Positions 5,863 to 19,789 of a stretch of DNA of 41,117 bases are shown here, one piece after another. How positions within the stretch are numbered: the first letter of the stretch is position 1; each line of letters opens with the position of its first letter. The position numbers and the translations under genes are program-made. Source of the DNA: a bacterium (GTDB lineage Bacteria; Chloroflexota; Dormibacteria; Dormibacterales; Dormibacteraceae). A model generated the notes under the pieces. That model did no database searches, was not told where the DNA came from, and saw only the letters and a program-made list of their open reading frames with translations. The DNA is taken from the NCBI GenBank assembly GCA_902812395.1, contig CADDZO010000008.1, positions 1-41,117 of the forward strand. Direction: 5' to 3'.

Positions 5863-6492
5863 CTACTCGCGCAGCGGCAGCACCCGTGCCCGCACTCGCT
5901 CCCCCAGCTCCAGGATCCCGAAGGACGGCACCAGCGGATCGCGTCGGTGCCGGATAACTTGCAGCCAGCACCACTCGAACCAGTTCGGCTCCAATCCCAG
6001 GCGACGCCGAGCCTCCTGGGGGGAGACCATGTAGACGGCACCGGGGTTGAAGACCAGCGTCGAGCCGACCAGGTCGGCGCGGGCGCGGTGGGTATGGCCG
6101 TAGACGATCACGTCCGCCCGCGGCACCTTTCGATGCAGCCAGCCCACCAGGTCCGGGTTGGGCCACCAGCGGCCCAGGGTCACGGTGCCCAAGAAGGTCA
6201 CCGGCTCCTCCACCAGCCGGCTGCGGTTGCCGTGCAACAGCGCAATCCGCCGGCCGGCCACGGCGACCTCCCGGTAGCGAGGAAGCTGGAGACCGGGGTC
6301 GTGGTCCCCACGCACCGCCACCACGGGCGCGATCTCGCCCAGGCGCCGTAACGTGGCCTCGCCGCCCACGTCGCCGGCGTGCAGGATGAGATCCATTCCC
6401 TCCAGGCCCCGCATGAGCTCCGCTGGGAGCCGATCCAGGAACTCTGGGCAGTGGGTGTCGGCGACGACCCCGATGCGGACCACCACCCACAT
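5863..6492 (-). CDS. YfcE/MJ0936-like metallophosphoesterase
   Basis: About 209 residues of the calcineurin-like phosphoesterase fold. Metal-site motifs in order: D-T-H (12-14), H-A-G-D-V (38-42), R-G-D-H-D (61-65), L-L-H-G (85-88) and Y-G-H-T-H-R further on. Relatives hydrolyse phosphodiesters such as 2-prime,3-prime-cyclic nucleotides or bis-pNPP in vitro. The third motif normally reads GN(H/C)D, and here Asn is Asp, which may alter metal binding. The longest frame starts at 6531, but the fold begins at R-I-G-V-V-A-D-T-H, so ATG 6492 or GTG 6486/6483 is more likely. It is divergent from the DUF4097-like gene. Confidence 0.8.
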   Translation of the reverse strand: MWVVVRIGVVADTHCPEFLDRLPAELMRGLEGMDLILHAGDVGGEATLRRLGEIAPVVAVRGDHDPGLQLPRYREVAVAGRRIALLHGNRSRLVEEPVTFLGTVTLGRWWPNPDLVGWLHRKVPRADVIVYGHTHRARADLVGSTLVFNPGAVYMVSPQEARRRLGLEPNWFEWCWLQVIRHRRDPLVPSFGILELGERVRARVLPLRE

Positions 6493-6524
6493 TGTTGCGC
6501 AGATCCACATCTGATCATCCGAGC

Positions 6525-6554
6525 TTGACAATTTGGCAAGAAACGATTTCTAAT
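6525..6554 (+). promoter_or_regulatory. Strong sigma70-type promoter for the DUF4097/DUF2089 pair
   Basis: A perfect -35 box TTGACA (6525-6530), an 18-base spacer and TCTAAT (6549-6554). The expected start point is the ATG at 6561, seven bases after the -10 box, so the message is predicted to be leaderless. This is the clearest promoter in the window and lies in a locally AT-rich patch. Confidence 0.75.
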
Positions 6555-6560
6555 CACTAT

Positions 6561-7385
6561 ATGGACGACGAACGCAGGAGGATCCTGGAGCGGGTGGCCG
6601 CGGGCGAGCTGAGCCCCGCCGAGGCGGCTGCGCTCCTGGACGAGCTCGAATCCGGGGGGCGGGAGGCGCCCACCACCACCGTCGAGCCGCCACCAGCGGG
6701 CTCGGAAGGCCCGGCCCGCCGTATCCGGCTGGTCTGCGCCATGGGCATGGCCGAGGTGATCGGCGATCCCGGGGTGCGTGAGGCGGCCGCCGAGGGCCCC
6801 CACGTGGCCCGGCGGGAGGGCGAGATGCTGGTGATCGAGGGCGACGAGCAGGAGGACTGGTGGTGGGGCCATCACGGCTTCACCTTCTCCTGGCTGGGTC
6901 GATCCGGCTGGGACCCTCGCATCCGCCCCCGCCGCCCCCGCCGGCCACCGCGGCCGCACGACTGGTGGTGGTGGGTCCCGCGTCAGCTGCGGGTGCGGGT
7001 CAACCCCGAGCTGCCGCTGGAGGTCGAGATCCAGGCCGGCAGCATCCTGATCCGCGACCACCGGGCCCCGATCCGGGGCGCGATCCAGGCCGGCCGGGCC
7101 ACCGTCGAGGGCTTCGCAGCGCCGATAGAGCTGGCCCTGCAGGCGGGCAGCGTGCACCTCCGGGGCCGTATCGATTACGGCAACTCCCGCATCCAGTGCG
7201 AGGCCGGAGCGGTCATACTCCATCTGGAGCGGGGCTCGAGCGTGCGCATCAGTGCCACCTCGGCCCTGGGTCCGGTGACCTTCAACGGCCAGCCGGTCCG
7301 GGAGCCGTGGACCGTCGGCACGGGCGAGGGCTCGCTCGACATCACTTCCACCATGGGATCGGTGCGGGTGACCAGCGAGGAATGA
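6561..7385 (+). CDS. DUF4097/LiaF-like protein with N-terminal SHOCT-like helix
   Basis: 274 residues. Residues 1-32 (R-R-R-I-L-E-R-V-A-A-G-E-L-S-P-A-E-A-A-A-L-L) form a short helical SHOCT-like motif. A Pro/Arg/Trp-rich linker follows. Residues 150-270 are beta-rich repeats (V-E-I-Q-A-G-S-I-L-I-R-D, then I-Q-A-G-R-A-T-V-E-G-F, then L-Q-A-G-S-V-H-L-R-G) like the beta-helix-type DUF4097/adhesin family. There is no signal peptide. Such proteins often sit with DUF2089 genes, as here, but their job is unknown; an envelope-stress sensory role is a guess. The ATG at 6561 is chosen because the promoter places transcription start there. Confidence 0.65.
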   Translation: MDDERRRILERVAAGELSPAEAAALLDELESGGREAPTTTVEPPPAGSEGPARRIRLVCAMGMAEVIGDPGVREAAAEGPHVARREGEMLVIEGDEQEDWWWGHHGFTFSWLGRSGWDPRIRPRRPRRPPRPHDWWWWVPRQLRVRVNPELPLEVEIQAGSILIRDHRAPIRGAIQAGRATVEGFAAPIELALQAGSVHLRGRIDYGNSRIQCEAGAVILHLERGSSVRISATSALGPVTFNGQPVREPWTVGTGEGSLDITSTMGSVRVTSEE

Positions 7386-7425
7386 TGCGAGGGTGGCGAG
7401 GCAATGACGCGTTGGAGGTGACACG

Positions 7426-7788
7426 ATGAGGGCACCCTCGCGCTCCGCTCCCCGTGACTGCCCGGTCTGCGGGGAGCGGCTGGTCCTGACCCGGCTCAGC
7501 TGCCGCGCCTGCGGAACCGAGCTATCGGGCGAGTTCGAGGCCTGTGAGTTCTGCTCGCTCGGCCGCGAGGACCGCGAGCTGCTCAGAGTCTTCCTGGCCT
7601 CAAGGGGCAACATGAAGGAGCTGGAGCGGCACCTCGGGGTCAGCTACCCCACCGCCCGTGCCCGCTTCGACCAGCTGCTGGCCCGGCTGGGGCTGGGGGC
7701 GGCAGAGCGGTCAGGCCGGGTCGAGCTGCTGGAGCGGCTGGCCCGGGGCGAGATCGACATCGAGGAGGCGATGCGAAGCCTGAGCTGA
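7426..7788 (+). CDS. DUF2089 family zinc-ribbon/helix-turn-helix protein
   Basis: 120 residues. Three CxxC pairs (residues 12-15, 26-29, 40-43) form zinc-ribbon-like sites. A helical segment with L-R-V-F-L-A-S-R-G-N-M-K-E-L-E-R and V-S-Y-P-T-A-R-A-R follows, which is the family's HTH-like core. The C-terminus (L-L-E-R-L-A-R-G-E-I-D-I-E-E-A) resembles the N-terminal helix of the neighbouring 6561-7385 protein. The family is a presumed small DNA-binding regulator. A GGAGG ribosome binding site lies seven bases before the ATG. It lies 40 bases behind the DUF4097-like gene and is probably co-transcribed with it. Confidence 0.78.
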   Translation: MRAPSRSAPRDCPVCGERLVLTRLSCRACGTELSGEFEACEFCSLGREDRELLRVFLASRGNMKELERHLGVSYPTARARFDQLLARLGLGAAERSGRVELLERLARGEIDIEEAMRSLS

Positions 7789-7857: not shown

Positions 7858-8841
7858 TCAGGCAAACAGGTGGGCCTCCAGATCCTGGAGGCGGGGCTCC
7901 GGCTGGCGCTCGGCCCAGTCCGCGGCCTCGGCAGCCTCCGCCTCCAGCTCACGATGCACCTGCTCGGCCTCGGCTGGCTCGAGCCAGCCCCGATCGGCCA
8001 GCCATCTCTCGAAACACGCCACCGGGTCGTGGCGGCGAGCTTCCTCGATCTCCTCCTGCGAGCGGTACCGGCTCTGGTCGTCCTCCGAGGTGTGGGAGTT
8101 GATGCGCCAGATCCGCGCCTCGACCAGCGTGGGGCCATCGCCGGCCCGGGCCCGGGCCACCGCCGCCCGTAGCTCCCGATGGCAGGCGGGGACGTCGGTG
8201 CCGTCCACCACCACCCCCGCCATCCCGTAGCCGGCAGCGCGCTCGGCCAGGCAGGGGTTACCGGCCTGGAGTTCCAGTGGCACCGAGATCGCGTAGCGGT
8301 TGTTCTCGCATACGAACACCACCGGCAGGCGGTGGACGGCGGCGAAGTTGAGCCCCTCATGGAAGTCGCCCTTGGAGGTGGCACCGTCGCCAAAGGTGCA
8401 CATCACCACCGAGCCGTCCCGCCGCCAGCGCGCCGCGTAGGCGATGCCGGCCGCTTTGGGGATCCAGGTCGCCACCACCTGGCAGGTGGGGGCGATCCGG
8501 AGCCGCGGGTGGGCGAAGCAACCGCCGGGGATGTTTCGGCCGCCGGAGAGGGGATCCGCAGCTCGGGCGAAGACGGCCAGCATCCACTCCCGGGCCGTCA
8601 GCCCGCGGGCGACCGCGCTGCCCAGCCCGCGGTAGTGCAGAACCAGCCAGTCCTGCTCCTCCAGGACCGCCGCGGCCGTGACCTGGATCCCTTCGTGGCC
8701 TCGGGCCGAGCCCACGAACGGAGCTCGACCCTGACGAACCAGGATGTGCATCCGATCGTCCAGGGCCTTGGTCGCGCACATCCAGCGATGGAGGCGCAGG
8801 CCCTCCTCGCGGCTGAGTCCGGCCTCAGCCGGAGCCGCCAT
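7858..8841 (-). CDS. Thiamine-diphosphate 2-oxoacid dehydrogenase E1 alpha subunit (branched-chain type)
   Basis: 327 residues, the usual length for E1-alpha. The thiamine-diphosphate/Mg motif runs from G-D-G (151-153) to N-N (180-181), with S-K-G-D-F-H-E-G-L-N-F between, as in BCKDH E1-alpha. The phosphorylation-loop region reads S-H-T-S-E-D-D-Q-S-R-Y-R. E1 decarboxylates a 2-oxo acid and reductively acylates the lipoyl domain of E2. No E1-beta, E2 or E3 gene is adjacent. The ATG lies inside the end of the leuA-like gene (17-base overlap), so the two should be translated together. It may pair with an E1-beta encoded elsewhere. Pairing with the transketolase C-half at 13220-14203 is conceivable but unproven. 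Confidence 0.85.
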   Translation of the reverse strand: MAAPAEAGLSREEGLRLHRWMCATKALDDRMHILVRQGRAPFVGSARGHEGIQVTAAAVLEEQDWLVLHYRGLGSAVARGLTAREWMLAVFARAADPLSGGRNIPGGCFAHPRLRIAPTCQVVATWIPKAAGIAYAARWRRDGSVVMCTFGDGATSKGDFHEGLNFAAVHRLPVVFVCENNRYAISVPLELQAGNPCLAERAAGYGMAGVVVDGTDVPACHRELRAAVARARAGDGPTLVEARIWRINSHTSEDDQSRYRSQEEIEEARRHDPVACFERWLADRGWLEPAEAEQVHRELEAEAAEAADWAERQPEPRLQDLEAHLFA

Positions 8842-10216
8842 CGCCGTCGGTCGCCAGTGCCCTGGCGATCTCCGCCACCTCCTCCAGGGACAGGCCCATC
8901 CCCTCCAGGTGGCGGTAGTAGCTGCGCTGGAACTCGCCGTGATCGCTCGCCGCTGCCCGCTCCTCGCGCAGCCGCTTCACCTCCTCCATGACCCGTCCCA
9001 CCAGCTCGGCGCTGGGCCGGATCCCGGCCGCGCGCAGGGCGTGCTCGATCACCATCGCCCCCGAGTGCTTGCCGTAGACGTACCGGACCTCGGCCCCCAG
9101 ATCCTCGGGCGGGATGAACTGGTAGGTGGCGGGGTGAATGAGCATGGCCGCGGTGTGGATGCCGGACTCGTGGCTGAAGACGTTGAGCCCGATCCCGGGC
9201 TCGGTCGGTGCCACCGGCACCCCGGAGAGGCGCTCCAGCTGCCGGGCCAGCTCCCGCAGCCGCTCGTAGCGAAAGCCCGGGATGTCGATGCCGAACAGGT
9301 ATCGGAGCTGGAGCAGCACCTGGTGCATGGGGGCGTTCCCGGTCCGCTCCCCGATCCCGTTGACGCTGGTGGTGAACACCTCGGCTCCGGAGCCCAGTGC
9401 CACCACCGTGTTCCAGGCGCCCAGCCCCAGGTCGTTGTGGAAGTGCACCACCAGGGGGTGGTCGGGGGTCGCCGACTTGATCTCGCGGATGTACTCGCGC
9501 ACCGCGAAGGGGGAGTAGCAGCCGACCGTGTCCGGGGTCGAGGGTCGGGTTCCTCCCGCCCGCAGGCCCTCGACGTGCAGGCGCTTGACGTACTCGGGGT
9601 CGGCTCGAGAGCCGTCCTCGCCCCCGAACTCGATCGCCGTCGCCCCCTGCTCCCGGGCGTAGCGGATCGCGTCGCACATCATGCGCAGGTTGGCCTCCCG
9701 GTAGAAGGCGACCGGCAGCTCCAGCCACTCGCTCGCCGGGATCCCCTCCCGCGCGAGCAGGGTCTTGCCCAGCTTGTACTTGAGGTGAAGATCGCTGGCC
9801 GAGGTGAAGATGAAGTAGGTGACCTCGTCCCGGGCCACGCCGAGGTCGTCCATGACGCGCATGGTGGCATCGATGTCCGCTGCCGTGCAACGCATCATGC
9901 ATACCACCTCAAGATCGGACCTCAGCTCGCCTCGGCGCCGGCCCTCCAGCACTCGGCCGACGGTCTCCCGCTCCGAGGCAGACACGGCCGGGAAGCCGGC
10001 GTCGATGATGTGCACGCCGATCTCGGACAGGGCCCGGGCTAGCTCGTACTTGTGTCGGGGCGACATCGCCACTCCCGGCATCTGCTCACCGTCGCGGAGG
10101 GTGTCGTCGTAGATGCGGATCTGCTCCGGCGGCGGGAAGGCCAGGTCGTGCTGGAAGCGGGACGGCGGACGCACCAACTCCTCCAGCGGCTCCTGCAGCT
10201 CGACCGGCTCGTCCAT
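8825..10216 (-). CDS. 2-isopropylmalate/homocitrate-synthase-family enzyme
   Basis: 463 residues of the DRE-TIM metallolyase family that condenses acetyl-CoA with a 2-oxo acid. D-T-L-R-D-G-E-Q-M-P-G (38-48) supplies the catalytic Arg and metal Asp. H-F-H-N-D (258-262) supplies the metal histidines. G-E-R-T-G-N-A and H-E-S-G-I-H-T follow as in LeuA, NifV and homocitrate synthases. The C-terminus is about 100 residues shorter than LeuA with its allosteric leucine-binding domain, so feedback control is probably absent or different. Context (leuCD, leuB) favours 2-isopropylmalate synthase, but homocitrate or citramalate synthase cannot be excluded. It begins three bases after the leuD stop. Confidence 0.85.
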   Translation of the reverse strand: MDEPVELQEPLEELVRPPSRFQHDLAFPPPEQIRIYDDTLRDGEQMPGVAMSPRHKYELARALSEIGVHIIDAGFPAVSASERETVGRVLEGRRRGELRSDLEVVCMMRCTAADIDATMRVMDDLGVARDEVTYFIFTSASDLHLKYKLGKTLLAREGIPASEWLELPVAFYREANLRMMCDAIRYAREQGATAIEFGGEDGSRADPEYVKRLHVEGLRAGGTRPSTPDTVGCYSPFAVREYIREIKSATPDHPLVVHFHNDLGLGAWNTVVALGSGAEVFTTSVNGIGERTGNAPMHQVLLQLRYLFGIDIPGFRYERLRELARQLERLSGVPVAPTEPGIGLNVFSHESGIHTAAMLIHPATYQFIPPEDLGAEVRYVYGKHSGAMVIEHALRAAGIRPSAELVGRVMEEVKRLREERAAASDHGEFQRSYYRHLEGMGLSLEEVAEIARALATDGDGGSG

Positions 10217-10219
10217 ACC

Positions 10220-10762
10220 TCAGACGATCCCGGCCGCCCGCCGTTCCTGCAGCCGTTGCTGCACCCAGGGAACCAGGCCTCCGGTCTTTAACAGCTCGGC
10301 CATGAACGGGGGCAGCGGCTCCACCCAGAACTCGGCGCCGGTGGTGAGGTCGCGAATCAGGCCTTCTTCCAGGTCGACCTCGAGCTCGTCTCCCTGCCCC
10401 ACCTGACCGGCCGCCTGCGGTGCCTGCACGATCGGGTATCCGAGGTTGATGGCGTTGCGAAAGAAGATCCGGGCGAAGGACTCCGCGATCACGCACGAGA
10501 TGCCGGCTCCCCGGATCGCCACCGGGGCGATCTCGCGCGATGAGCCGCACCCGAAGTTGGATCCGGCCACGATCAGGTCGCCGGGGGAGATGCGCTGAGC
10601 GAAGCCGGGCCCGATCTCGGGCACCCCCTCCATCGCGTGCTCTCCCAGCCGCTGCTCGTCGAGCGAGTAGATCGCGTACTTGGCCGGGATGATCTGGTCG
10701 GTGTCGACGTTGTCGCCGAACTTCCAGGCCCGGCCCCGAACCCGTGTTTGGGCCATCGTCAC
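10220..10762 (-). CDS. leuD: 3-isopropylmalate dehydratase small subunit
   Basis: 180 residues, aconitase swivel domain. [12 protein letters not shown] (18-29) and [11 protein letters not shown] are the small-subunit signatures. The specificity loop after D-T-D-Q-I-I-P reads Y-A-I-Y. In the archaeal-type family an Arg in this loop (YLRT) has been tied to homoaconitase and hydrophobic residues to isopropylmalate isomerase, so this loop favours isopropylmalate. The start GTG overlaps the leuC stop as GTGA (four bases); ATG 10756 is an alternative. Works as a heterodimer with LeuC. Confidence 0.85.
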
Positions 10763-12042
10763 ACCCCCACCGGTTGGCGCACAACCTCGGCCGGATGCGT
10801 GATCTCGCCGGCCACCGCGCTCGCCGCAGCCACCACGGGGTTGGCCAGGTAGACCAGGGCCTTGGGGTCGCCCATCCGCCCCGGGAAGTTGCGGTTGGTG
10901 GTGGAGAGACAGACCTCGCCCTCGCCCAGCACCCCCTGATGGCCGCCCAGGCAGGCCCCGCAGGTCTCTGTCGTCCAGGCCGCCCCCGCCTCCATGAAGA
11001 TCCGGACCAGCCCCTCGCGTTCGGCCTGAAGGGCGACCTGGTGTGACGACGGGGTCACGATCAGACGCACCCAGGGAGCCACGTGGCGCCCCTCCAGGAC
11101 CTGGGCGGCCCGCCGCAGGTCGGTGATCCGGGAGTTGGTGCAGGAGCCGATGAAGACCTGGTCCAGCCTGGTCCCGGCCACCTCGTCGATGGGAGCGGTG
11201 TTCTCAGGCGACATCGGCCTGGCCAGGGTGATCGGGACCTTCTCGGCATCGATCTCGAAGGTCTGCTCGTACTCGGCGTCGGGGTCGGACGCCACCGGCT
11301 GCCAGGGCCGCTGGGCGCGGCCGCGCAGGTACGCCTCAGTGACGTCGTCGCAGGCCATGATCCCGTTCTTGGCCCCGGCCTCGATGGCCATGTTGGTCAT
11401 GGTCAAGCGGCCCTCCATGTCGATGTGGCGGAGCGCCTCGCCGGTATGCTCCATGGCCTTGGAACGGGCGCCGTCCACCCCGATCATGCCGATCACGTGC
11501 AGGATCAGATCCTTGCTCTCCACCCACTCCGACAGCCGGTTGTGGTAGACGAAGCGAAGGGTCTCAGGAACCCGGAACCAGAGCTCACCCAGGGCCAGCA
11601 CGCAGGCCAGGTCGGTGGAACCGATGCCAGTGGCCAGGCAGTTGAGCGCGCCGTAGGTGCAGGAGTGGGAGTCCGCTCCCACCACCAGCTCCCCGGGCAG
11701 CACCAGGCCCCGCTCCGGGAGCACGGTGTGACAGATGCCGCCCTGGCCCACCTCGAAGTACCATCGGATCCCCATCTCGCGCGCGAACTCGCGCGTCATT
11801 CGACCGAGCGCCGCCGACGCTGCGTCCTTGGCGGGCTGGAAGTGGTCCTGCACCACGGCCACCCGCTCCGGGTCCCAGACCCGCTCCGCCCCCATCTGCT
11901 CTCGCATGATCTTGCCGGCGGGCGGGATGGTCAGATCGTGGCCCATGGCGAAGTCGATCCGGCCCAGCACGAGATCACCGGGACGGACCACTTCCCGGCC
12001 GCTGGCCCGAGCCAGGATCTTCTCGCTCATGGTCATGCCCAC
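10759..12042 (-). CDS. leuC: 3-isopropylmalate dehydratase large subunit
   Basis: About 427 residues, the short archaeal/actinobacterial-like form of the aconitase superfamily. The three [4Fe-4S] cysteines are at residues 301 (I-G-S-C-T-N-S-R), 361 and 364 (C-G-A-C-L-G-G). D-S-H-S and G-S-T-D-L motifs are present. It isomerises 2- to 3-isopropylmalate with LeuD. Homoaconitase belongs to the same family. The GTG at 12042 is preferred because GGAGG lies eight bases before it and the protein then starts like relatives (x-G-M-T-M-x-E-K-I-L); ATG 12036 and the longer frame from 12066 are alternatives. It follows leuB by 13 bases. Confidence 0.87.
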   Translation of the reverse strand: MGMTMSEKILARASGREVVRPGDLVLGRIDFAMGHDLTIPPAGKIMREQMGAERVWDPERVAVVQDHFQPAKDAASAALGRMTREFAREMGIRWYFEVGQGGICHTVLPERGLVLPGELVVGADSHSCTYGALNCLATGIGSTDLACVLALGELWFRVPETLRFVYHNRLSEWVESKDLILHVIGMIGVDGARSKAMEHTGEALRHIDMEGRLTMTNMAIEAGAKNGIMACDDVTEAYLRGRAQRPWQPVASDPDAEYEQTFEIDAEKVPITLARPMSPENTAPIDEVAGTRLDQVFIGSCTNSRITDLRRAAQVLEGRHVAPWVRLIVTPSSHQVALQAEREGLVRIFMEAGAAWTTETCGACLGGHQGVLGEGEVCLSTTNRNFPGRMGDPKALVYLANPVVAAASAVAGEITHPAEVVRQPVGV

Positions 12043-12055
12043 GGCCTTCACCTCC

Positions 12056-13087
12056 TCAGTCCCCAAGCCGCCGCAGCACGGCGTCGCCCGCCTCCCTGGT
12101 GGACAGCGACCCCCCCAGATCTCGGGTGCACTCGCCCGACCTGATGGCTCCGATCACCGCCTGCTCGATCCTCTTCGCCGCTTCCTCGTCGCCGAGGTGC
12201 TCGACCATCATACCGGCGCTCAGGATCGCCCCCAGGGGATCGACCACCCCCTTGCCAGCGATGTCGGGAGCGCTGCCATGGACCGGCTCGAACAGGCCCT
12301 TGCCGGTCTCGGGGTTGAGGTTGGCGCTGGGAGCCAGGCCCATCCCCCCCACCAGGGCCGCGGTCAGATCGCTCAGGATGTCGCCGAAGAGGTTGCCGGT
12401 GACGAGGACCTCGAAGCGAGTCGGGTCCCGCACCAGCTCCATGGCAGCGGCGTCGACGTAGAGGTGGCGGGCCTCGAGGTCCGGGTGCAGGGCACGCAAA
12501 TGAGCCCAGCAGTCTTGCCAGAGGCCGCCGGCATGGGCCATGGCATTGGACTTGTCGACCATACAGATCCGGCGCCGGGCGCGGCCGAACGCGTACTCCA
12601 GGATCCGGCTCACCCCCCGGTAGGTGTTGAGGTCCTCCTGGACCGCCACCTCCTCGGGAGTGCCGCGCCGGAAGCGCCCGCCCATCCCTACGTACAGACC
12701 CTCGGTGTTCTCGCGCACGATGACCAGGTCGATGCCGCGCCGGGAGGGGTCACGAAGCGGCGAGAGGCGGTCGTCGTAGAGGCGAGCCGGCCGCAGGTTG
12801 ACGTAGAGGTCGAGCTCGAAGCGCATCCGGAGCAATACCTGCGCCGGGTAGCCCACGTCGGGGACGCGCGGGTCACCAATGGCGCCGAAGAGGATGGCAT
12901 CCGCTCGGGCGATCTCTTGGAAGGTGGCCTCGGACATGGCCGGCTCGCCGCGCAGCAGCGGTCCGGCCCCGACCTCGAACTCCTCGAACTCGTAGCCGAG
13001 GCCCAGGGCGCGAAGCACCCGGACCGCCTCCGGCACCACCTCCTGGCCGGCCAGGTCCCCCGGGACTACCGCGACCTGCTTCGGCAT
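12056..13087 (-). CDS. leuB: 3-isopropylmalate dehydrogenase (actinobacterial type)
   Basis: 343 residues, isocitrate/isopropylmalate dehydrogenase family. The substrate helix region reads V-L-L-R-M-R-F-E-L-D-L-Y-V-N-L-R-P, close to mycobacterial LeuB (LRFELDHxINLRP). V-R-E-N-T-E-G marks the family. The metal and substrate site follows as N-L-F-G-D-I-L-S-D, with G-S-A-P-D-I-A-G-K-G near the NAD site. It oxidatively decarboxylates 3-isopropylmalate to 2-oxoisocaproate. The frame is open to 13165, but the fold starts at M-P-K-Q-V-A-V-V-P-G-D, so ATG 13087 is used; it has no good ribosome binding site. A small upstream frame overlaps this start. Confidence 0.87.
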   Translation of the reverse strand: MPKQVAVVPGDLAGQEVVPEAVRVLRALGLGYEFEEFEVGAGPLLRGEPAMSEATFQEIARADAILFGAIGDPRVPDVGYPAQVLLRMRFELDLYVNLRPARLYDDRLSPLRDPSRRGIDLVIVRENTEGLYVGMGGRFRRGTPEEVAVQEDLNTYRGVSRILEYAFGRARRRICMVDKSNAMAHAGGLWQDCWAHLRALHPDLEARHLYVDAAAMELVRDPTRFEVLVTGNLFGDILSDLTAALVGGMGLAPSANLNPETGKGLFEPVHGSAPDIAGKGVVDPLGAILSAGMMVEHLGDEEAAKRIEQAVIGAIRSGECTRDLGGSLSTREAGDAVLRRLGD

Positions 13088-13128
13088 CTGGGACGGCGGG
13101 AGGCACCCGCGACAACCAACTGGAGCAT
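13066..13128 (-). other. Possible leaderless leader peptide before leuB
   Basis: A 20-codon frame starts at ATG 13128, seven bases after CACACT (13141-13136), and ends inside leuB. It begins M-L-Q-L-V-V, with two Leu and two Val codons among the first six. This could be a branched-chain-responsive leader peptide coupled to leuB, or chance. No attenuator hairpin was found. Confidence 0.25.
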
Positions 13129-13219
13129 GGCTGACAGTGTGCACCCCGGCCGCCTCAGGCGCCAAGGCACTCGAACCCGACCTCCCCGAATCGACCGGTG
13201 CGCGCCCGGGTGGCGCGCG

Positions 13220-14203
13220 TCAGCGCCGCCTCAGCACCCGTCTGGCGCGCTCGACGATGGCGGGAGCCGTCAGGCCCCACTTCTCCAGCAGCTCCTCAGC
13301 CCGGCCCGACTCACCGAAGCTGTCCGGCATCGCCACCATCTCCATGGGCGCTGGATGGTGGAGGGCCAACGCCTCCGCCACCGCCGATCCCAGGCCCCCG
13401 TGGATTTGATGCTCCTCAACCGTGACCAGCGCCCCGGTCTCCCGCGCCGCCGCCACCAGCGCCTCCACGTCCAGAGGCTTGATCGTGTGACAGTTGAGGA
13501 CCCTCGCCTCGATCCCCTCGGCCGCGAGGGTCCGGGCCGCCTTCAGCGCCTCCAGGACCAGGGGTCCGCAGGCCACGATGGTCAGGTCCGAGCCGTGGCG
13601 CAGTACCTGGGCCCGACCCAGCTCGAACGGGGTCTCCGGCGTGGTGAAGATCGGCGTCCGCTCTCGGCCGAAGCGGAAGTAGGCCGGGCCCCGGTGCTCG
13701 GCCAGCGCGATCGTCGCCTTCAGGGTCTGGTGGTAGTCGCAGGGAACGACCACGGTCATGTTGGGCAGCACCCGGGTGATCGCGATGTCCTCCAGCGCCT
13801 GATGGGTGGCCCCGTCGGGGCCCACCGACAGGCCCGCATGCGCCCCCGCCACCTTGACGTTGGCCTCCGAGTAGCACACCGAAACCCGCAGTTGATCCCA
13901 GTTCCGGCCCGGGGAGAAGGTTGCGTACGAGGAGCAGAACGGGATCTTGCCGCAGATGGCCAGCCCGGCCGCGATCCCCATCATGTTCTGCTCGGCCACG
14001 CCGACCTGGAAGAAACGGTCGGGGAATCGATCCCGGAAGGCGCTCACCCGGGTGGAGTCGGCCAGGTCACCGGTGAGGACGACCACGTCCGGGTTGCGCT
14101 CGCCCAGGACCACCAGGCCGTCGCCGAAGCCGTCACGCGGTGCCTTCGAGGGCAGCTCCCGTTCGAACAGGCCCTCGACTAGGTGGGCCTCGGTGACGAT
14201 CAC
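13220..14203 (-). CDS. Transketolase, C-terminal half (split enzyme)
   Basis: 327 residues containing the transketolase pyrimidine-binding domain (F-G-D-G-L-V-V-L-G-E, then F-Q-V-G-V-A-E-Q-N-M-M-G with the conserved catalytic Glu) and the C-terminal domain. It is the second half of a two-gene transketolase as found in archaea and many uncultured bacteria. With the N-half it would transfer two-carbon ketol units in the pentose phosphate route. E1-beta and DXS share this architecture. The ATG overlaps the stop of the N-half by four bases (ATGA), so the two are made together. Confidence 0.85.
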   Translation of the reverse strand: MIVTEAHLVEGLFERELPSKAPRDGFGDGLVVLGERNPDVVVLTGDLADSTRVSAFRDRFPDRFFQVGVAEQNMMGIAAGLAICGKIPFCSSYATFSPGRNWDQLRVSVCYSEANVKVAGAHAGLSVGPDGATHQALEDIAITRVLPNMTVVVPCDYHQTLKATIALAEHRGPAYFRFGRERTPIFTTPETPFELGRAQVLRHGSDLTIVACGPLVLEALKAARTLAAEGIEARVLNCHTIKPLDVEALVAAARETGALVTVEEHQIHGGLGSAVAEALALHHPAPMEMVAMPDSFGESGRAEELLEKWGLTAPAIVERARRVLRRR

Positions 14204-15069
14204 TCCGCCTCGCTCGCGATCCGGCCACGCAAGCTGCGCAGTTCCTGGACGGCGCGCCGAGCCTGCTCACGGTCCGGGGGCACGCCGTGCCACCGATAGT
14301 CGCGCTCCATGAAGTCGACTCCCCGGCCCGGAATGGTGTGACAGATGACGACGGTCGGCCGCTCGTAAATCGCTTCGGCGTGGCGGGCGGCGTCGACGAT
14401 GGCCTTGAAGTTGTGCCCGTCGATCTCGATCACGTACCAGTTGAAGGCCTCGTACTTGGCTCGGAGCGGCTCCAACGGCATCACGTCCTCGGTGTAGCCG
14501 TCGATCTGGATGTTGTTTCGGTCCACCCAGGCCGTCAGATTGTGCAGCCGGTGCTTGCCGGCGAACATGGCCGCCTCCCAGATTTGGCCCTCCTGATGCT
14601 CTGCGTCCGAGAGGAGGACATGGGTACGCCAGCCGGCTCCGTCCAGAGAGGCCGCCAGCGCCATCCCCACTCCCTGAGAGAGGCCCTGGCCCAGAGGACC
14701 CGACGTGTTCTCGACGCCGGGAGCGGAGCGGATGTGGGTATGCCCTTGGAGGGGACTGCCCAGCTGACGGAGGGTGGGCAGGAGCGAGACCGGGAAGTAG
14801 CCGCGCTCGGCCAGGGTCGCGTACCAGACCGGACAGATATGACCGTTGCTGAGCACGACCCGGTCGCGGTCCGGCTTCCACGGATCGGCAGGGTCGATGT
14901 TGAGGATGCTGAAGTACAGGGCGGTGAAGACGTCGGCCATCCCCAGGGGGCCAGCGGAGTGGCCGGAGCCGGCCGCGAGCAGCATCTCGACCACGTGCTC
15001 TCGGATCCGGGTGGCGGTCTCGGCCAACCTGACCTCCTCGCTGTCGGACAGCGTCAGCAGACTCGCCAT
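14200..15069 (-). CDS. Transketolase, N-terminal half (split enzyme)
   Basis: 289 residues of the thiamine-diphosphate-binding domain. G-H-S-A-G-P-L-G-M-A-D lies near residues 35-45. The diphosphate/Mg motif reads L-L-S-D-A-E-H-Q-E-G-Q-I-W-E-A-A, where canonical enzymes have GDGE; the metal Asp is kept but both glycines are replaced by Ser and Ala. D-R-N-N-I-Q-I-D-G follows. It would pair with the overlapping downstream half. The ATG at 15069 is preceded by GGAG, 37 bases after the acyl-CoA ligase stop, so it is likely in that transcript. Confidence 0.85.
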   Translation of the reverse strand: MASLLTLSDSEEVRLAETATRIREHVVEMLLAAGSGHSAGPLGMADVFTALYFSILNIDPADPWKPDRDRVVLSNGHICPVWYATLAERGYFPVSLLPTLRQLGSPLQGHTHIRSAPGVENTSGPLGQGLSQGVGMALAASLDGAGWRTHVLLSDAEHQEGQIWEAAMFAGKHRLHNLTAWVDRNNIQIDGYTEDVMPLEPLRAKYEAFNWYVIEIDGHNFKAIVDAARHAEAIYERPTVVICHTIPGRGVDFMERDYRWHGVPPDREQARRAVQELRSLRGRIASEAE

Positions 15070-15106: not shown

Positions 15107-16699
15107 TCATGGCAGCGTCGCCGGCGAGGCCGGTCGCAGGCGGAAGCGTTGGATCTTGCCGGTGGCGGTCTTGGGCAGTTCGGGCACGAAGTGGAACTCC
15201 CGGGGACACTTGTAGTGGGCCAGCTGTTCGCGGACCAGCTGGCGCAGCTCGGCTGCCAGCTCGACCGTTCCCTCCACGCCGGGCCCGAGCACCACGAAGG
15301 CCTCGGGGCGCACCAGCTGCTGCTCGTCCACGATGCCCACGACGGCGCACTCCAGCACCGCCCGGTGCCGACTGATCACGGCCTCCACCTCGGCCGGGCT
15401 GACCCAGATCCCCCCCACCTTCATCATGTCGTCGCTCCGCCCCTGGTAGGTGAAGTACCCTTGGCCGTCGCGAACGTACTGGTCGCCGGTGTCGATCCAT
15501 TCGCCCTGGATCGTCCGCTTGGTGCGCTCGTGCTGGTTCCAGTAGAAGGCGCAGATCGAGTCGCCTTTGACCAGCAGCCGGCCCACCTGGCCGGCGCCAA
15601 GCTCCCGGCCTTCCTCGTCGACGACCCTGGCCTCGTAGCCGGGGACGAGCCGGCCACTGCAGTCGGGTCGGACGTCGTCGATCCGGTTGGAGATGAAGAT
15701 GTGGCAGCACTCGGTGGAGCCGATCCCGTCCAGGATCACGGTCCCGGTGCGTGCTCGCCATCGCTCCAGGATCGACCCAGCAAGGGGCTCGCCGGCGCTG
15801 ACGCAGCAGCGGACCGAGCTGAAGTCTGCCCGCTCCCAGAGCTCCGGTTCGGCGGCCAGCACCGCCGCGTAGCTGGTCGGCACCCCAAAGTAGAGGCTCG
15901 GGCGCAGCCGCCGGACCAGGTCGAGCACGACCGCCGGCGCCGGTGGCCCCGCGAGCAGGATGGTGCAGGCGCCGACGGCGAACGGGAAGTAGAGGGCGTT
16001 GCCGAGGCCGTAGGCGAAGTAGAGCTTGGCCACCGAGAAGGTGACGTCGTCCTCGCCGATCCCGAGCACTGGCTTGGCGTAGTTCTCGACGCAGTAGCGC
16101 GCGTCGTGCTGTAGGTGAACGACGCCCTTGGGGAAGCCGGTGGTACCCGAGCTGTAGAGCCAGAAGCACATGTCGTCCCGACGGGTGTCGGCCGGGGCCA
16201 GCTCGGGCGAGGCTGCAGCCGTGATCTCCGCCAGCGAGAGCTCGTCCGGCCGTGCGTCGCCGGCCACGATCAGGTGGCGGAGGTGACGACGCTCGGAACG
16301 GATCTGCCGAAAGGCGTCGACCAGAGGGGCCGAGACCACCGCCGCCTTGGCCCGGCTGTCGTCCAGAAGGAAGGCGTAGTCCTGCGGCTTGAGGTTGGTG
16401 TTGACCGGGATCGGGACCGCCCCCAGCTTGATCGACCCGAGGAAGGTGGCCACGAACTCGGGACCGTCGAGCATCGCCATCAGCACCCGATTCTCGATCT
16501 CGATCCCGAGCTGAGCCAGAGCGTTACCGACCCGGTTCGCCTGGCCGGCCACCTCACCGTAGGTCAGGGCGGTGCCGTCCAGGGTCCTGATCGCGACCCG
16601 GTGCTCGCGCCCTGCCTCTAGGTTCCCGTCCAAGAGATCCGCGGCCAGGTTGTAGCGCTCCGGTAGCTGATCGGCAACCCAGACCGGCGCCCCCTCCAT
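15107..16699 (-). CDS. Benzoate-CoA-ligase-family acyl-CoA synthetase
   Basis: 530 residues of the ANL adenylating superfamily. The ATP loop reads L-Y-S-S-G-T-T-G-F-P-K-G. G-S-T-E-C-C-H-I-F is the A5 region, W-I-D-T-G-D-Q-Y is A7, G-R-S-D-D-M-M-K-V-G-G is the A8 hinge, and the catalytic Lys lies in T-A-T-G-K-I-Q-R near the C-terminus. The S-x-x-E-x-x-H-I-F-I-S-N pattern is that of benzoate/4-hydroxybenzoate-type ligases. It activates a carboxylic acid to its CoA thioester; whether that acid is aromatic is not proven. ATG 16699 is chosen over the longer frame because the family N-terminus follows it and a TACACT box lies eight bases upstream. Confidence 0.85.
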   Translation of the reverse strand: MEGAPVWVADQLPERYNLAADLLDGNLEAGREHRVAIRTLDGTALTYGEVAGQANRVGNALAQLGIEIENRVLMAMLDGPEFVATFLGSIKLGAVPIPVNTNLKPQDYAFLLDDSRAKAAVVSAPLVDAFRQIRSERRHLRHLIVAGDARPDELSLAEITAAASPELAPADTRRDDMCFWLYSSGTTGFPKGVVHLQHDARYCVENYAKPVLGIGEDDVTFSVAKLYFAYGLGNALYFPFAVGACTILLAGPPAPAVVLDLVRRLRPSLYFGVPTSYAAVLAAEPELWERADFSSVRCCVSAGEPLAGSILERWRARTGTVILDGIGSTECCHIFISNRIDDVRPDCSGRLVPGYEARVVDEEGRELGAGQVGRLLVKGDSICAFYWNQHERTKRTIQGEWIDTGDQYVRDGQGYFTYQGRSDDMMKVGGIWVSPAEVEAVISRHRAVLECAVVGIVDEQQLVRPEAFVVLGPGVEGTVELAAELRQLVREQLAHYKCPREFHFVPELPKTATGKIQRFRLRPASPATLP

Positions 16700-16713
16700 A
16701 TGGGCGCAGTGTA
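16700..16713 (-). promoter_or_regulatory. Putative -10 box for a leaderless acyl-CoA ligase message
   Basis: TACACT (16713 to 16708) lies eight bases before ATG 16699, without a Shine-Dalgarno sequence. No convincing -35 box. Confidence 0.35.
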
Positions 16714-16785
16714 AGGCCCGACGTCGCAGCTCGGCCAGACTGGTGACCGAGGACACGGAACGGCGGCAGAGATGGACGATCGACC

Positions 16786-17121
16786 TCAGGTCGAAGCCGC
16801 GAGGATCCGCTCGAAGTCGGTGTCCCGGATCTCGCCCAGGAAGGAGCTCGGCTCTTCCACCGGCATGTCCACTGACGTCTCGTAGACGAAGGCGTAAACG
16901 TTCTCCAGCGTCCAATCGCCGTAGCCGCGCAGGGCCAACTGCTTCCGGAGCCCTGGCTTCCTCGCGCCGGCCTCGAACAGCCGCTTCGCCTGGCGGTAGA
17001 GGGTGCGCAGGATCTGCAGCTGGAGCTGGAGCTCACCGATCTCCTTAGGGTCAGCCTCCGCCTCGATCATGGCGTCCACCTGAGCCTGGAGCTCGGCGAT
17101 CTCGCTCGAGTATTCGTCCAC
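16786..17121 (-). CDS. Small helical/coiled-coil protein of unknown function
   Basis: 111 residues, acidic at the N-terminus, with a predicted coiled-coil over residues 5-50 (E-I-A-E-L-Q-A-Q-V-D-A-M-I, then I-G-E-L-Q-L-Q-L-Q-I-L-R-T-L-Y). The C-terminal part is mixed and contains Y-G-D-W-T-L-E-N-V-Y-A-F-V. No family was recognised. The protein-like composition and the lack of frameshifts favour a real gene. GTG 17121 lies six bases after TAGCCT, which overlaps the stop codon of the VOC gene, so it may be read from its own start or as the second gene of that unit. Confidence 0.55.
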   Translation of the reverse strand: MDEYSSEIAELQAQVDAMIEAEADPKEIGELQLQLQILRTLYRQAKRLFEAGARKPGLRKQLALRGYGDWTLENVYAFVYETSVDMPVEEPSSFLGEIRDTDFERILAAST

Positions 17122-17761: not shown

Positions 17762-19789
17762 TCAGTGGATCAGGGAATGGGACACGACCAGCCCTGCGAT
17801 CAGGATCGAGATGATGTTGACGACCTTGATCATGGGGTTGATGGCGGGACCAGCGGTGTCCTTGTAGGGATCGCCGACGGTGTCGCCCGTGACCGCCGCC
17901 TTGTGCGCCTCGGAACCCTTGCCACCCAGGTTGCCTTCCTCGATGAACTTCTTGGCATTGTCCCAGGCGGCCCCGCCACTGGTCATGTAGATGGCCACGA
18001 AGAGGCCGGTCACGATCGCGCCCACGAGCATGCCGCCAAGGGCCTTGGGGCCGAGGACCAGGCCCACCACCACCGGGCCCAGCACTGGCAGCAGCCCGGG
18101 CAGGATCATCTCGCGCTGGGCGGCAGCGGTCACGATCCGGACCGCCGGCCCGTACTCGGGCTTGGCCTTGCCCTCCATGATCCCTTTGATCTCACGGAAC
18201 TGGCGGCGGACCTCCTCCACCACCAGCCCACCGGCCCGGCCCACGGCCAGGATCGCCAGCGAACCGAACAGGAAGGGCATGATTCCGCCGAAGAAGAGGC
18301 CGACCACGACCAGCGGATCGCTGAGCTGGAAGGTCAGATGGGTCCCGTGTCGACCCAGCTCCTGCGTATAGGAGGCGAACAGAACCAGAGCAGCCAGCGC
18401 CGCCGACCCGATCGCGTAGCCCTTGGTCACGGCCTTGGTGGTGTTGCCGACTGCGTCCAGAGGATCCGTCACATCCCGCACGTCCTGGGGCAGGTCCGCC
18501 ATCTCGGCGATGCCACCGGCGTTGTCGGTGATGGGCCCGTAGGAGTCGATGGCGACCACGATCCCAGTCATCGAGAGCAGGGCCACGGCCGCGATCGAGA
18601 CCCCATAGAGACCGGCCAGGGCGTAGCTGACCAGGATCCCGATCCCGATCGCGATCACCGGCAGCGCCGTCGACATCATCCCGATCGCGCTGCCGGCGAT
18701 GATGTTGGTGGCGTGGCCGGTGACCGACTGGCGCGCGATCAGCCTGACCGGCCAGTAGCGGGCCTCGGTGAAGTACTCGGTGATGGCGACGAACACGATC
18801 GTGATCACGATCCCGACCAGCGCGCACCAGAAGAGATTGCGGGGATCAGAGATGCCAGGTACCGGGCGCAGCAGACCGTTGCCCACAAAGGCGCTGGTCA
18901 GGAACCAGAACCCGATCAGCGCGATCACGGCCGAGACCACCAGCCCGGCGTACAGCCCACCCATGATCCAGCGCGGGAAGTAGAGGCGGACCGCCAGCGC
19001 CCCGACCACAGAGCCCACGATCGAGATCGCCCCCAGCAACAGCGGGTAGACGGTCCAGGGCGCAGACCGGAAGAGCAGCCCGCCCAGCAGCATGGACGCG
19101 ACCATGGTCACGGCGTAGGTCTCGAACAGGTCGGCAGCCATGCCGGCGCAGTCACCCACGTTGTCGCCGACGTTGTCGGCGATCACGGCCGGATTGCGGG
19201 GGTCGTCCTCCGGGATCCCCGCTTCGACCTTGCCCACCAGATCGGCGCCGACGTCGGCGGCCTTGGTGTAGATACCACCGCCCAGGCGGGCGAAGACCGA
19301 GACCAGACTGGCCCCGAACATGAGCCCGACCAGCGCGTTGAGGTTGTGCGTCAGGTAGTAGCTGACCGAGACCCCCAGCAGACCCAGCCCCACCACCATG
19401 AAGCCGGTCACCGCCCCGCCGCGGAACGCCACCGTCAGGGCCCGGCTGAGCCCGCCCCGGGCGGCCTCGGCGGTGCGCACGTTGGCCCGGACCGACACGT
19501 TCATGCCCACGTAGCCGGCGGCGGCCGAGCAGGCGGCGCCGACCACGTAGAGCACTGCCGTGAGCCAGCCCAGGGTCAGGCCCAGGATGATCGCGATCAC
19601 CACCCCGATCGCCCCGATGACCATGTACTGCCGGTTCAGGTATGCGCTGGCGCCCTCCTGGATGGCGGAGGCGATTTCGACCATGCGCGCGTTGCCCGGA
19701 GGGAGGCGAAGCACGACCGCCGTCAGCAGGATGGCGAAGAGCACGGCGATCAGGCCCCCACCCATCGCCAGCAGGACGTCCTGATTCAT
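17762..19789 (-). CDS. hppA: Membrane-bound proton-translocating pyrophosphatase, K+-independent type
   Basis: 675 residues with about 16 membrane segments, the full family length. The catalytic loop [11 protein letters not shown] (179-189) is followed by E-D-D-P-R-N-P and [15 protein letters not shown] (448-453) has Lys at 452, the marker of K+-independent enzymes; K+-dependent ones have Ala. A third acidic loop near the end reads [11 protein letters not shown]. It uses pyrophosphate hydrolysis to pump protons out of the cytosol. A GAGGG stretch lies upstream of ATG 19789. It is transcribed alone, divergent from the CinA-domain gene. Confidence 0.95.

Follow-up and report, generated by a model that had tools for sequence, protein, structure and literature searches.

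Gene content and organization of the locus

The window analysed here, which is the whole stretch of 41,117 nucleotides (nt) of contig CADDZO010000008.1 from a genome of the Dormibacteraceae, a family of soil bacteria, contains an operon in which a gene for the E1-alpha subunit of a branched-chain-type 2-oxoacid dehydrogenase follows leuB, leuC, leuD and a leuA-like gene. The operon is read, with moderate confidence, as a module for 2-oxo-acid elongation and oxidative decarboxylation, most likely from an arylpyruvate to a 3-arylpropionyl-CoA with an E1-beta subunit supplied in trans. All coordinates are window positions, the operon genes lie on the minus strand, and gene identities were obtained from Pfam and NCBIfam profile searches of the window proteins. 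The features are as follows:

7858..8841, minus strand, E1-alpha of a branched-chain-type 2-oxoacid dehydrogenase, 327 aa (Pfam E1_dh, 250.9 bits)
8825..8841, minus strand, overlap of the leuA end and the E1-alpha start, 17 nt (open reading frame (ORF) coordinates)
8825..10216, minus strand, LeuA-like 2-alkylmalate synthase, 463 aa (HMGL-like 177 bits, HCS_D2 61 bits)
10220..10762, minus strand, LeuD, isopropylmalate-isomerase-type small subunit (Aconitase_C; best PDB match 3vba)
10759..12066, minus strand, LeuC, isomerase large subunit (Aconitase; NF001614 581 bits, cut-off 385)
12056..13165, minus strand, LeuB, 3-alkylmalate dehydrogenase (Iso_dh 315 bits; nearest structure 1w0d)
13220..14203, minus strand, transketolase C-terminal half (Pfam)
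14200..15069, minus strand, transketolase N-terminal half (Pfam)
15107..16915, minus strand, AMP-forming acyl-CoA ligase of the benzoate-CoA ligase family (AMP-binding; TIGR02262 602 bits, cut-off 375)
17762..19789, minus strand, membrane H+-pyrophosphatase, conserved upstream neighbour (H_PPase 878 bits)

From the ORF coordinates, the order of transcription is acyl-CoA ligase, split transketolase, leuB, leuC, leuD, leuA-like and E1-alpha. The original prediction had placed the E1-alpha start inside the end of a leuA-like gene behind leuB-leuC-leuD, and the coordinates confirmed this. It had also described the two genes as translationally fused. The ATG of E1-alpha lies 17 nt inside the leuA frame and the two genes are read in different frames, so that the junction is one of overlapping genes with probable translational coupling, and the idea of a protein fusion does not hold. 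The genes before leuB, namely the benzoate-CoA-ligase-family gene (16915-15107) and the split transketolase (15069-13220), had been overlooked. By its TIGR02262 score the ligase belongs to the benzoate-CoA ligase family; its translation may begin at a codon further downstream than the first TTG.

Conservation in Dormibacterota

In all of the Dormibacterota loci examined (36/36), the gene directly downstream of this leuA, and on its strand, is that for E1-alpha. Most of the underlying records bear the name Candidatus Dormibacteraeota/Dormiibacterota or Chloroflexi, with Ca. Dormiibacter among them. The E1-alpha start falls 1-20 nt inside leuA in 21 loci (2 of them with possible alternative starts) and 0-17 nt after it in 8, which gives overlap or near-abutment in 29 of the 36; an extra ~430-860 nt separates the genes in the remaining 7. 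The adjacency of leuA and E1-alpha is conserved and not due to chance. The order H+-pyrophosphatase, ligase(s), leuB-leuC-leuD-leuA-E1-alpha is kept in 20 same-family regions from 14 genera, as far as the contigs reach, except that the ligase is not at this locus in genus g5. Identity across the family is 74-82% for the LeuA-like protein, and LeuC is 75-88% identical in relatives; in genomes from other families of the class, the LeuA-like protein has paralogues of ~36% identity only. Two observations had been named in the original prediction as together counting against the idea, a complete separate dehydrogenase operon in the genome and a lack of conservation of the junction; complete separate 2-oxoacid dehydrogenase operons do exist in the window genome, but the leuA-E1-alpha junction is conserved.

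The split transketolase halves (13220-15069, between the ligase and leuB) are present only in the window genome and were found at this site in none of 20 relatives; they are an insertion and probably not part of the module. The C-terminal half (13220-14203) was considered as the absent E1-beta and rejected, because it is of transketolase type, has its N-terminal partner and does not occur at the site in the 20 relatives. Long ORFs after E1-alpha in relatives were considered as E2; those tested gave no Pfam match except for one histidine kinase, and their coding signal was poor. At the other side of the operon, the H+-pyrophosphatase (17762-19789) is kept beside the AMP-forming CoA ligase(s), enzymes that release pyrophosphate. 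A DUF2089 helix-turn-helix/zinc-ribbon gene and a SHOCT-domain gene (6492-7788), a possible regulator pair, face the operon end and are kept there in most relatives.

The LeuA-like synthase and the separate leucine locus

The window leuABCD is not the only such set in the genome. Separate ilvB, ilvN and leuA genes lie on contig C15 (L063:5691-9071) with leuC and leuD nearby, and further Iso_dh genes are present. Five selectivity positions have been described, which are Ala/Asp/Ala/Met/Ser in HphA (A73, D157, A159, M186, S242), His/Arg/Thr/Ser/His in homocitrate synthase and Leu/Glu/Ser/Asn/Glu in isopropylmalate synthase (IPMS) (PMC12961565). These positions were transferred by alignments to solved structures, and the mapping was checked on the C15 LeuA, which carries exactly the IPMS signature, Leu/Glu/Ser/Asn/Glu. 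The window LeuA-like protein has Met107/Glu196/Gly198/Ser226/Thr282, which is neither the IPMS nor the homocitrate synthase signature; it differs from IPMS at 4/5 positions and has smaller residues at 3/5. It also carries an insert of ~20 residues (at residues ~150-173) and scores below the curated LeuA cut-offs, at best 302 against 517 (NF002085) and 210 against 599 (TIGR00973).

Because the genome has a separate ilvBN-leuA/leuCD locus with the IPMS signature, and the window LeuA-like protein is without it, the window operon is no ordinary leucine operon. It resembles leuABCD in its four enzyme families and their chemistry but differs in having a separate leucine locus in the genome, a LeuA without the IPMS signature and a coupled E1-alpha. 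The original prediction had considered iso-branched acyl-CoA primers or a non-leucine product; a non-leucine product is supported as a possibility, and neither leucine nor iso-branched acyl-CoA primers are supported as the product, in view of the separate leucine locus, the pocket and the aromatic/benzoyl-CoA context of the subfamily elsewhere.

A Re-citrate or homocitrate synthase, with a branch to 2-oxoglutarate or 2-oxoadipate and an E1, IOR or POR step to succinyl-CoA or glutaryl-CoA, was weighed at this point. Re-citrate synthases have homocitrate synthase as a relative and frequently carry a homocitrate or isopropylmalate synthase annotation (PMC12016533), and an HCS_D2 domain is present in the LeuA-like protein. 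However, no His or Arg of homocitrate synthase stands at any of the five pocket positions, M107 and E196 occupying the places of His and Arg, and the pocket thus has no cationic residue for a second carboxylate. The LeuD specificity loop is YAIYS and not the homoaconitase-type YLRTT, and the best PDB match of LeuD is the isopropylmalate/citramalate isomerase 3vba at 195 bits, compared with 123 bits for homoaconitase 2pkp. Together with an aromatic gene context, this makes the reading quite improbable. The name of 3vba would suit a citramalate pathway, in which pyruvate is converted to 2-oxobutyrate and then to propionyl-CoA, but the citramalate synthase model gave 140 bits against a cut-off of 450 and the pocket residues are smaller, not larger, than those of IPMS at 3/5 sites, so this is the least probable of the readings weighed.

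From a pocket that has neither signature, no cation and three smaller residues, and from a LeuD loop like that of isopropylmalate isomerase, the side chain of the substrate is probably uncharged and bulkier than isopropyl, as far as the sequence allows a prediction. A close parallel is the homologation to homophenylalanine and homotyrosine (HphA, HphCD, HphB; anabaenopeptin), which performs the same LeuABCD-type one-carbon lengthening of an aromatic 2-oxo acid. With M/E/G/S/T, the window protein is similar in kind to HphA at 3/5 of the positions compared, having an acidic, a small (Gly/Ala) and a small hydroxyl (Thr/Ser) residue, and differs at the other two (M107 where HphA has Ala, S226 where it has Met). 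In that pathway transamination turns the lengthened acid into an amino acid that is used in peptide synthesis, whereas the window operon begins with an aryl-CoA-ligase-type gene and ends in a 2-oxoacid dehydrogenase subunit.

Distribution of the LeuA subfamily and linkage with benzoyl-CoA genes

The LeuA subfamily, with the ~20-residue insert as marker, was sought by a scan of 84,980 species genomes. Outside Dormibacterota it occurs at 43-54% identity in Firmicutes, Calditrichota, LCP-89 and Electryoneota among others. In Firmicutes (Acididesulfobacillus, Peptococcaceae CEB3 and Desulfosporosinus) the gene order is iorA-iorB-paaK-leuC-leuD-leuB-leuA, followed in some by 3-hydroxyacyl-CoA dehydrogenase, acyl-CoA ligase and 4-hydroxybenzoyl-CoA-reductase-like genes. 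Candidate division LCP-89 has the subfamily leuA with leuBCD, a BamA-like hydrolase and POR subunits, and in Electryoneota and Calditrichota it stands in operons with leuBCD and the BamA, BzdN and BzdO genes. The Electryonea copy tested passed the curated cut-offs for BamA (533 against 464), BzdN (499 against 454) and BzdO (702 against 449). Acididesulfobacillus has a benzoyl-CoA cluster ~20-30 kb from leuCDBA, which includes a benzoate-CoA ligase and a second IorAB; the window ligase is 55% identical to this benzoate-CoA ligase beside BzdN/BzdO.

BzdO was found in 13/15 genomes in which the LeuA-like gene is linked to leuBCD or benzoyl-CoA genes and in 0/13 in which it stands alone (exact test computed by hand, ~3e-6, indicative only, as the genomes are related and the definition of linkage partly includes benzoyl-CoA genes). 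The pocket E/G/(S or A)/(T or C) is common to all linked members of the subfamily. The tree grouped the Dormibacterota proteins with the Firmicutes cluster proteins and with unlinked Eremiobacteria and FW021 proteins (95/98 support).

Members of a second clade of the subfamily, from Nitrospirota, Firestonebacteria and others, are unlinked and differ in their pocket. The selectivity region of the second-clade proteins of Firestonebacteria, Desantisbacteria and Obscuribacterium reads A, C, S, G, and with this different pocket they probably use another substrate. In these three groups the LeuA-like gene directly follows a conserved ~435-aa gene (L146, L151, L156, L158, L160, L161), of which the L146 copy is a RuBisCO-large-chain-family protein.

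A LeuABCD-type set is therefore paired with a thiamine-dependent, acyl-CoA-making 2-oxoacid oxidase in three settings, namely IorAB, POR and the branched-chain 2-oxoacid dehydrogenase (BCKDH)-type E1. In the original prediction, the enzymes for making a 2-oxo acid and a subunit for oxidising it were taken to come from one operon. This arrangement is conserved in relatives, and the idea is better supported by the pairing of distant LeuA kin with unrelated oxidases than by the Dormibacterota data alone.

E1-alpha and its E1-beta partner

In the alignment with relatives, the thiamine pyrophosphate (TPP) motif GDG..NN and the RINSHTSEDD loop of E1-alpha are intact and the conserved His before the phospho-loop is present. 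The E1_dh domain, the TPP motif and the His identify the protein as a branched-chain 2-oxoacid dehydrogenase E1-alpha. Its closest solved structure is the Thermus thermophilus 2-oxoacid dehydrogenase E1-alpha, 1um9. It is similar to the BCKDH E1-alpha of BkdA1A2BL in fold, TPP motif and phosphorylation-loop region, and differs in that no adjacent E1-beta, E2 or E3 accompanies it and its partner E1-beta is presumed to be encoded elsewhere.

These features bear on a second leucine-type elongation, in which LeuABCD would make 2-oxoisocaproate and the BCKDH-type E1 would convert it to isovaleryl-CoA or a similar primer for iso-branched fatty acids. The branched-chain type of the E1-alpha, closest to that of T. 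thermophilus, would suit this pathway, as would the isopropylmalate-isomerase-like loop of LeuD and the nearest solved structure of LeuB, the M. tuberculosis-type isopropylmalate dehydrogenase 1w0d. It is nevertheless unlikely, given the separate leuA/leuCD with the IPMS signature, the LeuA-like protein that departs from IPMS at 4/5 selectivity positions, the tie of its subfamily to benzoyl-CoA genes and the benzoate-CoA-ligase-family gene within the operon.

No E1-beta, E2 or E3 was found in the local operon, as the original prediction had stated, but a matching orphan E1-beta was found elsewhere in relatives. Among the E1-alphas of the window genome, the window copy alone stands single, and the others adjoin or are fused to an E1-beta. 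Its nearest paralogue in its own genome is the E1-alpha of contig C50 (52% identity). The window genome and one relative (G005) retain the C50 E1-alpha/E1-beta pair. Of six well-assembled relatives, five (G004, G007, G012, G021 and G030) each carry a single E1-beta that lacks an E1-alpha beside it and is 73-75% identical to the one on C50. Each also has a single E1-alpha that lacks an E1-beta, and this is the copy linked to leuA; no C50-type E1-alpha was found in these five genomes. Since each of the five has one orphan of each kind, the simplest reading of the sequences is that the leuA-linked E1-alpha works with a C50-type E1-beta encoded in trans. The E2 and E3 may be supplied by other complexes (C4, C19, C55).

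The orphan E1-beta (L236:7319-9536; equivalents in L237, L238, L240 and L242) is followed by an overlapping conserved gene of ~415 aa, which also occurs after the intact E1-alpha/E1-beta pair of G005. This gene was considered as E2 and rejected, as the L236 copy encodes an Xaa-Pro-peptidase-like protein. The flanks of the orphan E1-beta in G030 were checked to ~1.5 kb.

Candidate aromatic-degradation genes in the family

Pathway genes in the window genome were sought by targeted searches only. For benzoyl-CoA reductase, no HGD-D match was found in the window genome (G000). An adjacent HGD-D gene pair is carried by G007, G012 and G021, and in G007 and G012 the region also has two activases and a crotonase-family gene (L225:9164-14485, L226:9271-14486). 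The G007 genes scored best to BcrC/BcrB and BadI, below the cut-offs; the pair may be a benzoyl-CoA reductase, but it is closer to BcrB/BcrC than to the Bzd type.

PaaA-like matches of ~116 bits (cut-off 280) were found in most family genomes, and a true PaaA was rejected for the family, the homologues being far below the cut-off. In the window genome a cluster on contig C19 (L227:4606-10096) contains a PaaA_PaaC-family gene, an enoyl-CoA hydratase, a PaaK-like gene, which is below the available curated cut-offs, and a PaaA-like gene. This cluster possibly encodes a divergent aryl-CoA oxygenase.

Proposed function of the operon

In the proposed mechanism, the LeuA-like enzyme would condense acetyl-CoA with R-CO-COOH to give a 2-alkylmalate, LeuCD would isomerise it, and LeuB would oxidise and decarboxylate the isomer to R-CH2-CO-COOH. 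An E1 made of the operon E1-alpha and the C50-type E1-beta, with E2/E3 of other complexes of the cell, would then yield R-CH2-CO-SCoA. R would most likely be aryl-methyl, so that phenylpyruvate or 4-hydroxyphenylpyruvate would give a 2-oxo-4-arylbutyrate and then a 3-arylpropionyl-CoA. From phenylpyruvate, the 3-phenylpropionyl-CoA would be beta-oxidised to benzoyl-CoA and acetyl-CoA. The route from 4-hydroxyphenylpyruvate would lead to 4-hydroxybenzoyl-CoA, which fits because 4-hydroxybenzoyl-CoA-reductase-like genes adjoin several clusters. The acetyl-CoA spent in elongation would be regained. An arylacetyl-CoA such as phenylacetyl-CoA cannot be beta-oxidised, unlike a 3-arylpropionyl-CoA. 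Elongation with oxidative decarboxylation is well supported as the class of chemistry; that the substrate is an aryl compound, that E1-alpha pairs with this E1-beta, that E2/E3 are shared and that the module runs in the catabolic direction we infer.

The opposite direction was also weighed, in which LeuB would carboxylate phenylpyruvate and, after isomerisation and by way of phenylmalate, LeuA would split the product to phenylglyoxylate and acetyl-CoA, with an oxidoreductase leading to benzoyl-CoA. It would likewise account for leuABCD standing with benzoyl-CoA genes and a 2-oxoacid oxidoreductase, but it requires reversal of the thioester-hydrolysing condensation of LeuA, which is effectively irreversible, and the irreversible E1 in Dormibacterota better fits the forward direction; we regard it as very improbable.

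Several observations weigh against this proposal. Within Dormibacterota the aromatic context consists only of the benzoate-CoA-ligase-family gene. BoxB of the aerobic benzoyl-CoA box pathway was found in 0/37 genomes, and this pathway was accordingly rejected as the benzoyl-CoA consumer; BcrB/BcrC-like benzoyl-CoA-reductase-like genes occur in only 3/23 family genomes. The only candidates for an aryl-CoA consumer in the window genome are the PaaA/PaaC/PaaK-like genes, of which the PaaA- and PaaK-like ones score below curated cut-offs. The likeness of E1-alpha to branched-chain E1 would equally suit isocaproate-type aliphatic acids. Eremiobacteria and FW021 LeuA-like proteins share the pocket but have no cluster, two Desulfosporosinus genomes carry the cluster yet are without BzdO, and the genomes in the BzdO comparison are not phylogenetically independent. 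In the LeuC tree, LeuC from Dormibacterota and LeuC from the aromatic clusters do not fall together, and the LeuC of the Firmicutes clusters is placed with a further Firmicutes LeuC whose gene lies at another site of the genome. Joint inheritance of LeuC and the LeuA-like gene was rejected for want of support in the tree, and because the two trees disagree, leuBCD may have been a separate recruitment.

On a wider scale, an undescribed catabolic route is tentatively proposed, in which phenylalanine, tyrosine or arylacetates would supply aromatic 2-oxo acids. These would be lengthened by one carbon, oxidatively decarboxylated to 3-arylpropionyl-CoA and beta-oxidised to benzoyl-CoA, and the last step of the module would have been filled independently, in different phyla, by the unrelated IorAB, POR and BCKDH-type E1. 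Anaerobic degradation of phenylalanine and phenylacetate proceeds by alpha-oxidation via phenylglyoxylate to benzoyl-CoA. The proposed route would share its end, the side chain being shortened to benzoyl-CoA, and PaaK is present in the Firmicutes clusters; it would differ in elongating and beta-oxidising the side chain instead of oxidising the alpha carbon. In the literature searched, no description of a LeuABCD/benzoyl-CoA link was found, which is weak evidence as most subscription papers were outside the search, and no biochemical data on this LeuA subfamily were found. Among the papers searched, the terms 'benzoyl-CoA reductase' and 'isopropylmalate synthase' appeared together only in a Geobacter growth study.

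The known roles of LeuABCD-type elongation lie in making amino acids, coenzyme B and plant or peptide products. If the proposal is true, the operon would represent a catabolic use of this elongation, coupled to an oxidase that forms an acyl-CoA and, in relatives, to the reduction of benzoyl-CoA. It would explain how bacteria without the usual enzymes of phenylacetyl-CoA oxidation remove an even-length aromatic side chain. It also gives a testable function for genes annotated as '2-isopropylmalate synthase' in Dormibacterota, Calditrichota, Electryoneota and Firmicutes, which are likely misannotated in many genomes.

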